Shown in pieces: positions 1 through 13,380 of a DNA stretch of 64,000 bases (its first letter is position 1; every line of letters starts with the position of its first letter). Source of the DNA: Microthyrium microscopicum (Eukaryota > Ascomycota > Dothideomycetes > Microthyriales > Microthyriaceae); contig MU004231.1 in assembly GCA_010405405.1 (NCBI GenBank), positions 737,736 to 801,735 on the forward strand. Direction: 5' to 3'. Under the pieces are notes generated by a model that searched no databases, was not told the origin of the DNA, and saw nothing but the letters and a program-made list of their open reading frames with translations. A program made the translations under genes and the position numbers.

Positions 1-3000
1 ACGCTGAGTGCAAAGGGAGAACGCATTCAGCAAGAGACACGAACGCGACGACATCGTGGTGTCCGCGCCTCGAAGAAAATGCTCGTTCACACCCCCCAGG
101 CTGCGCGCTTGTTCAAATCAATCACCCACTCACATTATCCAATCCAAGCGAGGAGCTGGCACATGGTTGCTCAACGTGAAACGGCTACACATCTGAAAGG
201 TGAAGATAAACCCGATCGCATGGTTTGATAGTTTCGGTTGTGAAATTGGATTGACAGCACTATCCCAAATCCCACGAGGTTCCTCAAGGCGCGGCCCGTT
301 GGTACTGTTTGCTGGGATCCCACACAGCCAAGGCAGTATTGTAGGCGTGTGGTAATAATAAGCATGAGGAGAGTCAAGCATTGGTGTGAGACTGTGGCAG
401 ATATGACCCGCTAATCTAATGTGGCCCAAGAACCCCTGAGCGAGCTGGATTTAAATCATTTGAGGCCGTGATCCATGGCCCAAGAGTGACGGTTGGAATA
501 AAGGGCGAGGAGGGCTTGGGCTGACGTGCATCATTTCAGATTATTGGAAACGGCAGAAGCAAAAGCAAGTCAAAGACTCTGAAGCAGTTCAAGATTCAAA
601 TGCAGGAAGCGTTTGAGAGCGGTACTGCGTCAACAAGTTCGCTTCTGCGTCAAGGAAGCGGATAATAGACGAAAGCGCGCGGTGAGCGCGAAATGTCGCT
701 TGAAAGATTGAGTGGTGAATCCTTCTGCCGCTTTGATCCCTTTGTGCATGCAAAGGGAATGAGTTGGCCGCAATGCCCCAAATCCCTCACCGTAAACTTG
801 TTAGATTATGCAGAATATACATGCAATCAGGGATGCACCGCAGCAAATCTGTCCTTCTGACCATGGCACAATGTCTGCGCCAACGGCGGGCGAGCTGAGG
901 AGTCGGGCCCGTTTGACAATTGGACAGTCAATTGATTCCGCGGCAGGACTGCACCATAATTCGCGCCAGGCGGCCACGGCGGCAAGCAAGCGACACATAA
1001 AAAGAGGAAACTGGCGCCCGATTTGACTTAGTGGAGACTAGGGGCATCAAAGGCGCATGTTCAGGGAACTGTCAGACATTGACATGCTATCATTCGCTAG
1101 TTGTCTTGGACCTTTCATTCCTTCCCAGATTCCCAGTAGCGGGTCACAATGCAAGTATTCCCGACGGTCGTGTCTTCGGGGATCTTTGGAAGATGAGACG
1201 TTGTGATGGTGAATAATGGATGAACAATGTGCGAAATCACCAATATGTCTCCGCATGGCCTGCTGGGATTAAAAGGCTTGGTCGCAAACTGGGCCATATA
1301 AGTGACTCTCAACTCGCTAATGGAGTTTGTAATGGTCTGGTGAGATTTTCGAGGGAAATCATCTGAAGCCACCTTCCTTGCTCATTCCTTGCTGGTCTTC
1401 ATGAGAATCATTAGTTTGGAACTGCCTTGCCACTCACATCAATAAATCTTTATTGCTTGTCCTAGAGGCAGGGATTCGATGCATAGATTTAATCGCGTTA
1501 CCGCTCGTGCCGCTTTAATCTGCTCGATGTTGGCAATTTGATACCCTTAGATAATATCAGATGATAGATCAAGCGCGGTTTGTCGAAACAGTCCGAGCTT
1601 CAAAAGAGTTTCTAGGATAGCTTTAAGCGCTTGATTGGAGCAAATGCTTTGAGGTGCTTAATTTCTGTATCGTTTGGACCGTGAAAGCAACAGTAATCTG
1701 CAGCCTGAGGAGATTGTGCGGCACAGTAAGTCGGTCGCTTTGGTACATCCGACTCCTTCATCGTAAGCGAAACAACAGCGTGGCCGTCTTGGGGACCGCC
1801 CGGGTTACGCTGTAGAATCTTATCAAAGAGGTTAAGTTTTAACGACCTCTTCACACCATCAGCTATGGAGTTCCTTTTCAACCTCTTGAGTAGTATGAGC
1901 TTCGCGAGGATTCCGGATGAGGTACGAAGGTTATGTCCAAAGACTGCCTTGTTGTTCGTAGTGGCTGTTCGTCAATTATTACCGAAACTCAATCTGGCAT
2001 CGAACACCGCAAGTAAGGTAATGGTCAAATGAGTAAGATCATATTCGTCACCATCGATTCCGAGGGAAAGGATTGCCGACGGCATGACCGCTTGGTACTC
2101 GTCCGTCGTCCACTGAGCTGGTGTCAATACAACACTGGGCCGTCAAGTAGGTCGGTTTTTGATAGTGGTCTGAAAAACGGCCTCCAAGCGGGTAATCAAA
2201 GGTGTCATGTCCGATTGAGGCAGCATAGAAACCAATTCACTATACGGAGTACTTTCAAGTCGTACATGGTTGGAACAACAATGACTGCTCTTGGTGGTGA
2301 AGTTGTCTTGTAAAATGGTTATCGATATGGGCCAAGCTTGAAATATTTTCAGCAGTTGTCCCAACTCCAAGTGTTCACCATCCAAAGGTCCCACAAGTCC
2401 CATAAATCCTAGTACAACCCCTGTCCCTGTAAAAGAGAGATTTGGGTGACAAGCAAGAAGATTTGCCGCCCATGGCCGGCTCGAAGACTACGTCTAGCGA
2501 ATCACGGCTGATGCCACTTTCTAGCTCAGACGCAACGGAACACGCGCGACAGGCCTATCCGCAGTGCAGACAGGCTGAGACTGGCTGGTTGTGCGCCCAG
2601 ACGCTGAAATGCATGTGCTGGCTCTTGTCGATGACCTTCGCGCCAGCCGGCCGCCCCCAAAGCGCCGCTGCCCGCTGGGCCGCTGCAGGTTAGGAGCTCC
2701 AGAGCCAGAGCAGAGGGATGGGCAAAAGATGGAACTTGACATCACATTTGGTTCTGTCTTGTAACGAGCGCTTCCGTGTCAGTTCCTTGCAGGCGGAGCA
2801 TTGTGCTGACAGAAGAGAGTTACGCCCAGCTATCCGGACAAGATGCTAAGATGCTGAAAGAGGTGCTGAAGGCTTGGAGGGTGCAAGCAAAGGCTGAAAT
2901 GCGAGCCTGATGGAGATTGACTGCGGATGGTGGCTCGAAAGCATCATTCCGACCGTCTGGACCTGACTGCTGGCCATGGACGATTTCAGTGTGCCCTGCG

Positions 3001-3057
3001 ACACACCGCCCGACCCGCGCTTTACTATGCTGGGCCCTGGTCTGCTGGGTAGGAGGA
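1..3057. other. Intergenic stretch without a secure gene
   Basis: No frame here gives a recognisable domain or a convincing chain of spliced exons. The best candidate is on the minus strand at about 1612-2403, where two open stretches (about 89 and 86 codons) have a normal, non-repetitive amino acid composition. The first stays open upstream of its ATG to a possible acceptor near 1980. This could be a decayed or multi-exon hypothetical gene, but I cannot join the parts with confidence. The rest is probably upstream sequence of the regulator that starts at 3968. Confidence 0.4.
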
Positions 3058-3058
3058 C

Positions 3059-3123
3059 TCAGGCTCAGGCTCAGGCTCAGCAGCAACAAGCTTACAAGCT
3101 TGAAGCAAGCAAGCAAGCAAGCT
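3059..3123. repeat. Short tandem repeats: CAGGCT units then AAGC units
   Basis: About 3.5 copies of CAGGCT are followed, after a CAGCAACAAGCTT spacer, by about five copies of AAGC. They lie just upstream of the likely leader of the Zn2Cys6 gene. These are simple microsatellites and probably vary in length between strains. Confidence 0.8.
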
Positions 3124-3215
3124 GGTTCTGTGGGCACTTGGAGACTTGGAGTGCTTGGGTACGGTAGTGGGTGGGCTCGCTCGTCTGGCACCTGGCTAGG
3201 CTGGCTTCCCCCATG

Positions 3216-3967
3216 TTGAGAGTTCGTCTGTAACCGCCAGATCGCCCGCCCACCATTTTCTCCCGCCCATCCTTTCGCTTCTGACCTTCAATTCTCCAGT
3301 CCTCCAGTTCCTTCCAATCCATCCCCTCTTCTTTTTCCATTCCAACTCGTGCCAACCGCTTCATTGTCGCCAGCTGAGTGGTTCACACGTATCCTTGCGT
3401 TTGTTGTCACCATTTGCCGTTCCGTACCACCTCGAAGATCGGAGCGCCATCATTCCACTTTTGCTTTGACGCGCCAGCGCCGCCGCGAGCGCGCTCATCC
3501 GCATTTACCGACCTGCTCTGCTCTCTCTGCTCACTTCCCCAGCTCTTCACCATCTCCAATAAGTTTGTTGTCAGTCTTAACATCTGGACCTGCAGCACTC
3601 GCTTCACCTCTCAACTTTTCATTTGCGCTCTGCATCTCAGCGCGCTCGGCAAAGGCAATCGCAACTTGGGAGCGCGCGGTAGTGGGAAGCCGCGCTGCCA
3701 CCTCGACCTTTCCTCCATCAACATCAACATCAACATTAGACTTGGTAGGGACGACCAATTTATTTGGTAGAATAGTTACAGTACTATTATAACCTACCCC
3801 GCCAAAGTAATTCCCAGATCTTCTCAGTTCAAATCCATTTTCTGGATTTAATTACTACTCTTAACATTTGACAATCTTTTAACACCATTCCAACCTCTGG
3901 AGCCTCTGATCCCACCACCTAATAGGCTACCATCACTGGAATTAACATATTCTGATTCCGCGAATCC
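3216..3967 (+). promoter_or_regulatory. Probable long ATG-free 5' leader of the Zn2Cys6-acetyltransferase gene
   Basis: After the ATG at 3213 there is no ATG on the sense strand until the start codon at 3968. That is 752 nt in which about a dozen would be expected by chance. The stretch is rich in C and T, as fungal leaders and core promoters often are. I infer a long untranslated leader kept free of upstream start codons. The transcription start cannot be placed from sequence. Confidence 0.5.
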
Positions 3968-9811: not shown

Positions 9812-11015
9812 ATCTCTATATTGCCGCCGCAGCATTGAGGCGAAGCAACATGCCCATTGGGTGGCGGACTTGGCAAAGATGCATACGAGCTGTACAAAGG
9901 GGTACTTCGAGTAGTTAAGGACCTTCCTGGAGCTGACCATATTGTGAGATCTCTAGCAAACACACCGTTGTCAGAAAGATCGACAACTTTTACCGCTATA
10001 AGGATAGTCACCCATTTTCACCAGCACTTCTCGACGCAAGCAACTGAGATCATGGGTCAGATTAGCTACTCACCATTGAGCGTTGAAAAGAAGGAGATCC
10101 GGCTATTGACTCTCTTTTCAAAACCTACCGTTATTGAGGACGCGCGCGATGCTGCAAACAAGGCCCTGGCAGATCTGAGCATCTCAGGCGAAAGTCACCC
10201 TGCGGACGGCTTCCAAAGCCAGGACGAGTCAAAGCCCTGCGGCGGGTCACTTACGATAGTTTCATTGAACGATAACCCCGAGTACGAAGCATTATCTTAC
10301 GTATGGGGAGATGAGAACCTGAAATCTACCTTCATTCTTGACGGCGTGGAGGTCAAAATCACCGAAAACCTTGCCGTTGCACTTCGACACCTGGAACCGA
10401 CCGAAAAACCTCTAGTACTGTGGATCGATGCGGTAGGTACTCTTACAACCGCTTTGGCGATGCGAGTGGAACATATATGCTGATTAATGGCACAGATATG
10501 TATAAATCAATCCGACAACGTAGAGAAAAGCCATCAAGTCTCGCAGATGAAAGACATATATTCAGCCGCAACTTCCGTGACAGTATGGCTTGGTCCTTTC
10601 GCCGATGGCAGCGATTATGTCATGTCCCAGTTTGAGAAGTTTGATGAGAAGTTTGACGTCTTTTCAGACTCTAATACAACTACCCTGGTTGGACTCGTGC
10701 GCCAGGCTATGGAAAGCGGCTTGACGACTCTAGAGCAAATCTGTTCACCCGTCGTCAAACAAACTGCCGCACAAATTGAGCAGTTGTTCAATCGTGAGTG
10801 GTGGTACCGTGTATGGGTGAGTAGAGTAGCCCTTGTACAAAGACTGTTTCTTCTAATATGTTTATTCTGACGAAGTCTAGGTTTTGCAGGAACTGGCCGT
10901 AGCGAAAGAGGTCGTTTTTGTGTGTGGTAACAAAAGAGTGAGTTTAGACAGACTTGAGCGCGCAGATGCCACGTTTGTCAACTTCATCTTCGCTCTGCTA
11001 TTAAATGTGCATGAA

Positions 11016-11112
11016 GGGGGAGTAGTACAGTGGTAGTACTTGCGATCTCGCGGCAGGCCCTACCTGTTTGAGAATCCGCAGGGCACGGGTTCGATTCCCG
11101 TCTCCCCCACCA
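11016..11112 (+). tRNA. tRNA-like sequence with encoded CCA (head of the retroposon)
   Basis: Positions 11016-11022 (GGGGGAG) pair perfectly with 11102-11108 (CTCCCCC). A D arm forms from GTAC/GTAC, and the T arm is ACGGG-TTCGATT-CCCGT. The A box TAGTACAGTGG and the B box GGTTCGATTCC match the polymerase III consensus. The anticodon region is about 45 nt. A 4-bp stem, TGCG (11041-11044) with CGCA (11077-11080), encloses 32 nt, which could be a loop plus an intron, so I cannot assign the anticodon. After the discriminator A (11109) the DNA encodes CCA (11110-11112). Eukaryotic tRNA genes do not normally encode CCA. Whether it makes a working tRNA is unknown. Confidence 0.6.
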
Positions 11113-11158
11113 CCCCAAAAAGGCAATCGTTACTCGCTTTTAAAGCCACGTTCACCCC

Positions 11159-11187
11159 TTTTTAGGGAAGGTTATCCTTCCCTTTTT
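11159..11187 (+). terminator. T5 run, hairpin and second T5 run after the tRNA-like head
   Basis: A run of five T (11159-11163) is followed by a perfect 8-bp hairpin (AGGGAAGG, loop TTAT, CCTTCCCT) and another T run ending at 11187. T runs of this kind stop RNA polymerase III. A transcript started by the tRNA boxes should therefore end here and not cover the 1-kb body. Confidence 0.45.
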
Positions 11188-13380
11188 AGCAGGTGTGGAG
11201 GACGAGCTACAGCTCTTTTTAACACGTCGCGGAAGGTGCAAATTTTTGTATCACGTGACCGCTGTATGCAGCCACAAGATCATCCTTGTCGAAGCCCCAC
11301 CAACAATAACGGACTAGCGTCAAAAATCACATGATTGGAAACCAGCCACATGGCACGCAAAGCCACACACAAAAAGCCACAACATCGCCGAAGCGCAGCA
11401 AATTCGGCATGCCGAAGCCAATTCTTTTACGGCTCTTGGCAATTAGATCGGACGATCGGCCCTGGCTTAGTAAGACCGAAATCCCAGCCGCGTGAGGCAA
11501 GGATCGGACCGAACGACACGGCAGAAACTCACGGGATCTAGGGACACCACGGCTCGGTAAGTACGGTGCCCGCGGGTCGGCAATATGGCGCTATAGGAAA
11601 AGTCGGCAGACTCGGGGGAGGTGACCCAGAACACGCCGGTCCGAAGGACCCTAGATCTTGGCTTGAAAGCGAAGCACAGCGTAGATGGATAGCTCTTAGC
11701 AGACTGTTGGCGCTGCCTCGGACTTGGTATTGCGGCACGAATGGAGGGATCTGACATAATAATAAGGAAGGAATCTTGGCCCCTTGGGGGACGACAATAT
11801 TGGCAACTTTAAAGAACTTGAAGCAGTGGACTGAATGGAAGAACAATAATCCGTAACGGATACTGGCCTAGAGAGGTGCCGCGGTTGGATACTACTCGGA
11901 ATTCGGCTCTCCTGACTTACCAATGCTTCTGTGGCTTGGGAAGCCGATGGGGCTTAGCATAGTATTAACGGCCTTGGCATGGATCGGCCTACGGAACACG
12001 ATAGTGGGGTTTTCCCTTATATAGTTAGCGCCTCGGTTTGCTGAACATGTAGGGGTTAGCCGAAGCCGGACTAGGCCTTAGGCCTGGAGTGAGTTAGCTC
12101 GGCTAGATTCGGGTAGATTGGCTGATTAGATAAGGGTTTTTACCCGCTTATTAAGAGTAGCGTCTGCATAGCCCATTAGCGTAGCTGAAAGACAATAAAC
12201 AAGATTCAATAAAAAAATAAATGTGCATGAACGAGGAGTCGCCTCTAGCAGGTCTATGCCGAAGCTCCCTTTCAATTATGCTGCTCGCAGGATGCTATTT
12301 CAAAGGCGTAAATACCAAAACAGACTAGAAGGTTACTCGAGTTGCACTTTAGGAGCCTTGCTGCAAGAGCTGTACGGGGTTGAGGAATGGACAAGCAGTC
12401 TACAGACATCTAGAGCTGTGGACAGGATCTACGGACTACTTGGTATAGCGCAAGATACAGAGGTACTAAACCTAGTTCCAGACTATTCGAGGGACACGGA
12501 GTGGGTATACACTGATGCTGCTGGTAAAATGCTGCAGCGCGGTGAGTTTGGGCTTCTTTCTCTGGCTCAACACGCAACACAACCATCGTTGTTACCCTCC
12601 TGGGTTCCGGATTGGCGTCTTCCTATGAAGGCACCCGTTGCCAAAAGATCTTTATCGCCAGTCTTTCGTCCATTTGGCAACATAGAAATCGTCTGCCCGT
12701 CTCCCCAACCAAACGACTTCAGAGTACTCGAAATTGCCGGAACTGCCGTGGATGAGATTGAACAGGTAGGATTACCTCTCGGTTACAGTTACCAGCAAAC
12801 CACGGCAGAAAACTTGCAGCATGTCCAATGTTATCTCTCTCAAATACAAGCCTTCTGTCGTCAATCTGCTTCATTAGCTACAGGCCTCTACGGCGACTCT
12901 GATAGATGGATGGAAGATGCTTTCTGGCGAATACCTATTGGAGACTTGGCAAATCCGACCCCAGGCCAATACACTATGGTGAGAGCAACCGAGACAAGTT
13001 TCACCTACCACCAAAGTCTACTAAAGGTCATCGCGGTTTCGAATGAAGCTAAAGACAGCACTGTCGGAAACGAAGAGCCTACGAAGCTGGCTGCTGTTAG
13101 ATCTGCCGAGTTCGGAAAGTACGAACAATATCTTTTTGGAGTTGTGAACAAAGCTGGACAAGCGCCATTCATAACCAAACGAGGCTACGTGGGTATTGGG
13201 CCGCCAAATATGGCCGCTGAAGACATTATTTGTATATTCTATGGAGCACACGTGCCGTACGTTCTTCGACCTGTGGAGGACGGGCGGTACACTCTTATCG
13301 GAGAGACCTATGTCTATGGGATCATGGATGGCGAATTTATGATAGACAGTCCAAAGAAAGATATTTTTCTTGTTGTATGA

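Follow-up and report, generated by a model that had tools for sequence, protein, structure and literature searches.

A 1202-bp retroposed copy on the plus strand of contig MU004231.1 of Microthyrium microscopicum (11016-12217 of the window, the whole 64,000-nucleotide stretch analysed here, positions 737,736 to 801,735 of the contig) runs from a tRNA-like head that carries an encoded CCA to an A-rich end. What kind of element is this, and how was it copied? The original prediction, made from the letters alone, described a modular retroposon starting exactly at a tRNA 5' end, judged its length and modularity excessive for an ordinary SINE, and suggested that the head had been copied from a CCA-bearing tRNA precursor and joined to another RNA before insertion. 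Analysis of the element and its relatives in the 36.9-Mb assembly (20 contigs) bears out the retroposon and leads away from the fusion: the element very probably belongs to a tRNA-headed, LINE-tailed SINE family and is not a one-off event. Within this well-known class it is oversized, and it stands out by its 1.2-kb length, by a cloverleaf whose anticodon arm is replaced by an extended one, and by carrying CCA or CTA in 16 of 16 copies. Coordinates are collected in Table 1.

Table 1. Features of the element and its surroundings (window coordinates)
Feature	Position	Strand	Basis
Host HET-domain gene region, probably broken by the insertion	9857..13380	+	open pieces 9857-10483, 10487-10870, 12223-13380
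5' target-site duplication, TAAATGTGCATGAA, perfect 14 bp	11002..11015	.	sequence TAAATGTGCATGAA
Whole element, 1202 bp, lightly mutated copy	11016..12217	+	genome matches, flank repeats, alignment
tRNA-like head, 7-bp acceptor stem, discriminator A at 11109	11016..11109	+	ARAGORN, Rfam, predicted fold
A-box-like sequence TAGTACAGTGG	11023..11033	+	comparison with consensus
Extended hairpin replacing anticodon arm	11039..11082	+	predicted fold
B-box-like sequence GGTTCGATTCC	11088..11098	+	comparison with consensus
Encoded CCA, directly after discriminator base	11110..11112	+	sequence, alignment
Non-coding body, without an Rfam match at the cut-off, genome copies found within the family only	11113..12151	+	
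First T5 run past head	11159..11163	+	sequence
Hairpin between first two T5 runs, 8-bp stem, UUAU loop	11164..11183	+	predicted fold
Second T5 run	11183..11187	+	sequence
Remaining T5 runs	11216-11220, 11243-11247, 12137-12141	+	sequence
3' tail, common to LINE-like family	12152..12208	+	genome matches
A-rich end, A7	12211..12217	+	sequence
3' target-site duplication, TAAATGTGCATGAA, perfect 14 bp	12218..12231	.	sequence TAAATGTGCATGAA

The element lacks coding capacity, its longest open reading frames being 102 aa on the minus strand and 88 aa on the plus strand, and its internal repeats amount to one 14-nt tandem pair. An Rfam scan up to E 10 returned only the tRNA model and two sub-threshold matches, both overlapping the head. 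Predicted folds of the body as a whole and of the tail are unremarkable (z -0.39 with 20 shuffles and z -0.58, respectively); the 148 nt directly 3' of the head fold more stably than shuffles (z -2.94). The window copy does have the A-rich end between identical 14-bp duplications that had been described for it, and its A7 is atypical, as other family copies terminate in ...ATTTAATAATAA or similar.

Use of the whole element as a genome query gave at least 40 matches, which like the other genome match counts are lower bounds: 17, counting the window copy, are longer than 1 kb, one is limited to the final 184 bp and 22 are confined to the tail. These matches define a dispersed family of at least 18 copies, the full ones being of similar length to that in the window. 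Recurrence of the unit 17 more times in the genome, each time in different flanks, is more than chance. Fifteen of the 18 copies have tRNA base 1 as their first base (the BLAST alignments open at base 1-3, and bases missed by them look by eye like changes of the G-to-A type), and sequence extending 5' past the tRNA start, which the original prediction had named as evidence against itself, was seen in none of these 15. All 15 headed copies are bounded by exact direct repeats of 10-19 bp ending no more than 4 nt from tRNA base 1; dispersed copies with target duplications are one mark of a SINE. As a control, the 5' flank of each copy was paired with the 3' flanks of all other copies: repeats of 13-19 bp occur in 14 of the 15 own flank pairs versus 0 of the 210 mismatched pairs, while repeats of 10-12 bp were reached by 17 of the 210, and the 10-bp repeat of L022 lies within this control range and is not beyond chance by itself. 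The common first base and differing duplications are those of a family, as had been anticipated. At the 5' junction of one copy (L011), one extra G separates the target duplication from tRNA base 1, possibly a non-templated addition.

Scoring of the head (11016-11109) against the Rfam tRNA model RF00005, a check that the original prediction had proposed, gave 52.5 bits against a cut-off of 29, with the model covered over its full length. ARAGORN placed a tRNA at 11016-11112 with no clear anticodon and no amino acid given. The minimum-energy fold is predicted to be a cloverleaf (z = -3.07; 2 of 200 shuffles were as stable), in which the acceptor stem has 7 bp, a T arm is present and ACCA forms the 3' overhang; a long hairpin stands in place of the anticodon arm, and the anticodon loop is absent. 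As far as prediction goes, then, the head is a tRNA-like structure without an anticodon loop, and its Rfam score and fold fit a SINE 5' head derived from a small Pol III RNA. A functional tRNA gene would have an anticodon loop and a sequence resembling host tRNAs; the head shows neither, in its predicted fold or against the non-family host candidates listed. When the head was used as a DNA query against the genome, at least 12 matches were obtained, every one a family copy and none a host tRNA gene. A genome tRNA scan, in which 63 of 1477 candidates were scored, listed 32 matches, 30 of them with loci, namely 10 family copies and 20 others. The strongest of the non-family matches listed (L064, anticodon GCA by our own reading) was rejected as the host parent, since its match is weak (89 versus 188 for a perfect match). 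The scan may possibly have missed a host parent, because only 63 of the 1477 candidates were scored. That no parent tRNA was found by either the DNA search or the scan counts against the SINE reading. Its high tRNA score might suggest that the head is an ordinary host tRNA gene lying by chance in front of a repeat, but the same head opens 15 copies that are dispersed in the genome and individually flanked by direct repeats of their own, and it has no free anticodon loop in the predicted fold, which makes this explanation extremely improbable.

Another explanation is a founding chimera, in which template switching during copying linked a CCA-bearing, intron-containing tRNA precursor with another RNA and so gave rise to the family. 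The encoded CCA directly after the discriminator would fit such an origin, as would the 94-nt length of the head, whose anticodon arm contains an insertion at the place expected for a tRNA intron. However, the insertion is predicted to fold within one continuous arm, the DNA search gave no host tRNA relative (the host tRNA list being incomplete), and the 15 headed copies carry one common head-body-tail unit. A body elsewhere without its head had been proposed as confirmation of a chimera; the body alone (11200-12120) as a genome query gave at least 18 matches, all of them family copies and none outside the family. The headless bodies are only incomplete copies with differing start points: L021, which starts at element base 67 and passes into Ns at the 3' end, yielded no direct repeat; L014 starts at about base 164-169 and has a 10-bp repeat, a length also reached by the control; L026 starts at base 1017, has a 14-bp repeat and resembles a normal 5' truncation. 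The start of L014 (locus position ~896-901) coincides with the 3' arm of the stable hairpin downstream of the head, which might reflect a stop of reverse transcription or the beginning of an alternative RNA at this point. Together, the single unit carried by all headed copies, the finding of the body only within the family, the lack of a host tRNA match for the head in the DNA search and the predicted replacement of its anticodon arm by a hairpin leave the claim of a fresh fusion unsupported. A founding chimera is unlikely as well; template switching could belong to the distant origin of the family and not to its present copying.

Evidence for the copying machinery comes from the 3' end. The last ~57 bp of the element are 87-96% identical to the 3' end of another repeat, and the suggested search for a LINE with the same tail was productive: with the tail as query, a LINE-like repeat was found, 22 non-family loci matching at 87-96% over 51-66 bp. 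Twenty of the 22 were fetched (C12:1359624 and C3:23518 were left out); 18 contain at least 2-3 kb of a single repeated element, and L028 and L040 contain ~0.4 kb and ~60 bp of it; four loci (L028, L033, L039 and L043) align to the whole element over 77-88 bp at 81-83%. One copy of this partner repeat was followed for 7.5 kb. An RT-like frame lies ~3-4 kb from the 3' end of the repeat, and the RT-like region is present in 9 of 10 further pieces fetched, the tenth (L078) having 1038 N in 1301 bases. A profile built from eight of the nine RT-region pieces matched the RT of locus L090 with 59.4 bits and E 1e-19 over ~270 residues (in a set of six frames, filters off, composition bias 21.9 bits), and a single RT-region piece reached 70.7 bits in this comparison; L090 itself matches Pfam RVT_1 above the cut-off (E 4.7e-12). 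Searched directly, the RIP-damaged translations of the region matched no reverse transcriptase in Pfam and nothing in PDB, which is understandable because the frames are damaged, yet is still a negative. Inspected by eye, all 98 RVT_1 matches of the genome search fall outside the 20 fetched tail loci and the ~7 kb upstream of them, and L091, another RVT_1-positive locus, did not match the partner-repeat RT profile. In view of the Pfam and PDB negatives and of L091, the RT assignment depends on one comparison, that with L090. Two other loci, whose RT frames are intact, seemed on reading to be LTR elements, and L088 gave no tblastx match to the partner repeat. On the L090 profile match, the tail-sharing repeat is taken to be a non-LTR LINE, so that the element has its 3' tail in common with a partner LINE, a frequent but not universal trait of SINEs, and this larger repeat probably copies the tRNA-headed element. 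Two further arrangements were seen among the tail loci: in L040 (reverse strand, 2982-3072) the LINE tail alone is inserted where the adjoining sequence is unmutated, flanked by two TGGAACGAGC repeats at a distance of 81 bases, and in L035 (~3188-3555, reverse strand) an inverted second copy of the LINE 3' end adjoins the first.

The unit structure, exact 5' ends, direct repeats, 5'-incomplete copies and common tail thus make up the anatomy of target-primed reverse transcription, and such anatomy is that of foreign RNA copied by a LINE. Here, the partner LINE would copy the RNA of the tRNA-headed element by this route through the common tail. The accessible portions of PMC3747384 are in line with this anatomy of LINE-driven SINE retroposition, and Tad1-type LINEs are named as fungal SINE partners in Table 1 of that paper and in sections 3 and 14 of PMC5063351, likewise available in part. 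The element's 1202 bp lie well past the customary SINE range, which counts against the SINE reading, although the range is not a mechanistic criterion: the available text of PMC5063351 gives 100-600 bp, yet elements of 700-900 bp are counted there as SINEs. Of the judgement that length and modularity set the element apart from ordinary SINEs, the first half holds, in that the length is unusual, but modularity is normal for SINEs.

Comparison with known fungal SINEs leads to the same class. The repeated non-coding retroposons described in the accessible parts of PMC5063351 and PMC3747384, several of them tRNA-headed and with target duplications, are of the same kind as the element here, which is longer than any named there. 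Lengths in PMC5063351 are 472 bp for Mg-SINE, 800 bp for mgsr1, 700 bp for Egr1, 900 bp (the longest) for egh1/EGH24 and 500 bp for nrs1; Foxy, SINE2-1_BG and AfuSINE2 are also listed, and Mg-SINE and SINE2-1_BG appear in Table 1 of PMC3747384 as SINEs with a LINE tail. A search of titles and abstract openings in the fungal and long-SINE literature, a set that mostly excludes subscription papers, found no 1.2-kb fungal SINE. The element differs from the listed SINEs in the heavy RIP mutation of most copies. Its cloverleaf is well preserved, as is stated for Mg-SINE, unlike AfuSINE2, for whose heads PMC5063351 itself, as far as its accessible text goes, reports no cloverleaf. Even so, AfuSINE2-1a (370 bp, PMC5063351 Table 1, as printed in the available text) resembles the element in its predicted acceptor stem, T arm and long hairpin at the place of the anticodon arm, and part of it resembles a Tad1-type LINE according to the table note. 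It is shorter and, by our own reading of the printed sequence and its fold, has CAA after the discriminator, with C74 present and CCA absent; a single base such as this C74 has a chance of ~1 in 4. Outside fungi, the gammaherpesvirus TMERs likewise fuse a tRNA-like head to further RNA (PMC7773990, available in part), but TMER RNA is processed by tRNase Z, as cited there, whereas the CCA encoded here would be expected to hinder that cut.

How the 1.2-kb RNA is made is less straightforward. The A- and B-box-like sequences, judged against what we take to be the consensus, are intact in the window copy and L010. The element also contains five T5 runs, four of them in its first 232 nt, versus 1.49 expected in 2000 first-order Markov simulations (p = 0.016 for a feature picked after being seen), and these should stop much Pol III transcription, a point against the SINE reading. 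The runs are kept, in order, in 15/16, 16/17, 17/17, 16/17 and 16/16 of the aligned copies covering them; since non-RIP divergence is very low, this retention says little about selection. Because full-length copies exist despite the five runs, the master RNA got past them somehow. The T-run and hairpin that had been noted after the head are real, and so is the difficulty that the T-runs pose for Pol III. The RNA could come from Pol III reading through often enough, or from a Pol II transcript trimmed at tRNA base 1. In the latter case, read-through or internal Pol II transcription would yield the 1.2-kb RNA, which RNase P would cut at tRNA base 1. In favour of this, Pol III would be hindered by the T5 runs, which nearly every copy retains, all headed copies begin at the RNase P site and an AATAAA lies close to the 3' end; on the other hand, Pol III SINEs also usually start at tRNA base 1, and the intact boxes speak for Pol III. 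A Pol II origin is possible, though rather doubtful.

Fourteen of the 17 long copies carry mutation damage of the RIP type. With the window copy as reference for the 16 other long copies, C-to-T changes were counted at 715 of 1104 CpA and 631 of 1199 CpG sites, versus 97 of 1054 CpT and 139 of 1150 CpC; the changes on the other strand number 639/935 at TpG, 230/1669 at GpG and 103/1348 at ApG. GC content is 0.51-0.54 in the window copy, L010 and L011 and 0.27-0.43 in the other 14, and since the GC of L010 exceeds that of the window copy, the latter is itself slightly mutated. Transversions number only 4-29 per long copy, and for this reason the family seems, from the aligned copies, to be young apart from RIP. 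The minimum duplication size for RIP is about 400 bp; the 1.2-kb length exceeds it, and most long copies are indeed mutated.

The window copy probably also affected its insertion site. Two open pieces upstream match the Pfam HET domain (PF06985; 9857-10483, E 3.9e-08, and 10487-10870, E 1.6e-16), and the downstream piece, 12223-13380, has no Pfam match. When the empty site is reconstructed, a single reading frame crosses the junction, with 45 open codons on the upstream side and a continuation into the downstream piece ending at 13380. Since the frame is continuous across the empty site, the element probably broke a HET-domain (heterokaryon incompatibility) gene that, by its reading frame, was open at this point. 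An intron-like stretch, GTGAGT ... GCAG, was noted by eye at ~10817-10889, upstream of the insertion. A HET gene together with the RIP pattern would point to a filamentous ascomycete.

There remains the CCA, which does follow the discriminator base in the DNA of the window copy, as described originally. The alignment gives CCA in 5 and CTA in 11 of the 16 copies covering this stretch (the 15 headed copies and L021; L014 and L026 do not include it). As CTA is the RIP product of CCA, the ancestor, judging from the aligned triplets, most likely carried CCA. The chance of a CCA triplet is ~1 in 65 at the element's own base frequencies, and CCA in all copies was inherited from one ancestor and so counts as one event; by itself the triplet is weak evidence, suggestive and no more. 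Encoded CCA in SINE heads is otherwise read as a trace of tRNA primers or of a CCA-tailed tRNA. It is also quite possible, if somewhat short of an even chance, that it is a meaningless triplet, only three letters at such a frequency within the C-rich stretch CCACCACCCC. The CCA stands, however, in exact register with the discriminator of a well-folded head, and a 'tRNA-related CCA end' is labelled for a set of other SINEs in the Table 1 legend of PMC5063351, the marked bases being lost in the available text.

A more speculative alternative, to which we give a rather low probability, is that the encoded CCA is a selected shield against tRNase Z that keeps head and body joined. CCA has been reported as a tRNase Z inhibitor. 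An intact acceptor-T-arm fold would put the head of a SINE at risk of removal by tRNase Z, and a CCA encoded in the DNA would block that cut, so that head and body stay one RNA; the 5' end would still be set at the RNase P position, the head being 'matured in front, protected behind'. CCA was not found in PMC3272025, PMC8010984 or PMC10886601, and the accessible part of the literature on SINEs, CCA and tRNase Z/RNase Z contained no link between encoded CCA and SINE stability, which is not proof of absence.

For the biology of these elements, the family indicates that neither a length of 1.2 kb nor several apparent Pol III stops need keep a tRNA-headed SINE from spreading in a fungal genome. 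If the CCA shield were true, it would account for both the exact tRNA 5' end and the CCA, C74 or CCA would be expected in SINEs whose heads still fold well, and encoded CCA in SINE heads would have a testable reason.
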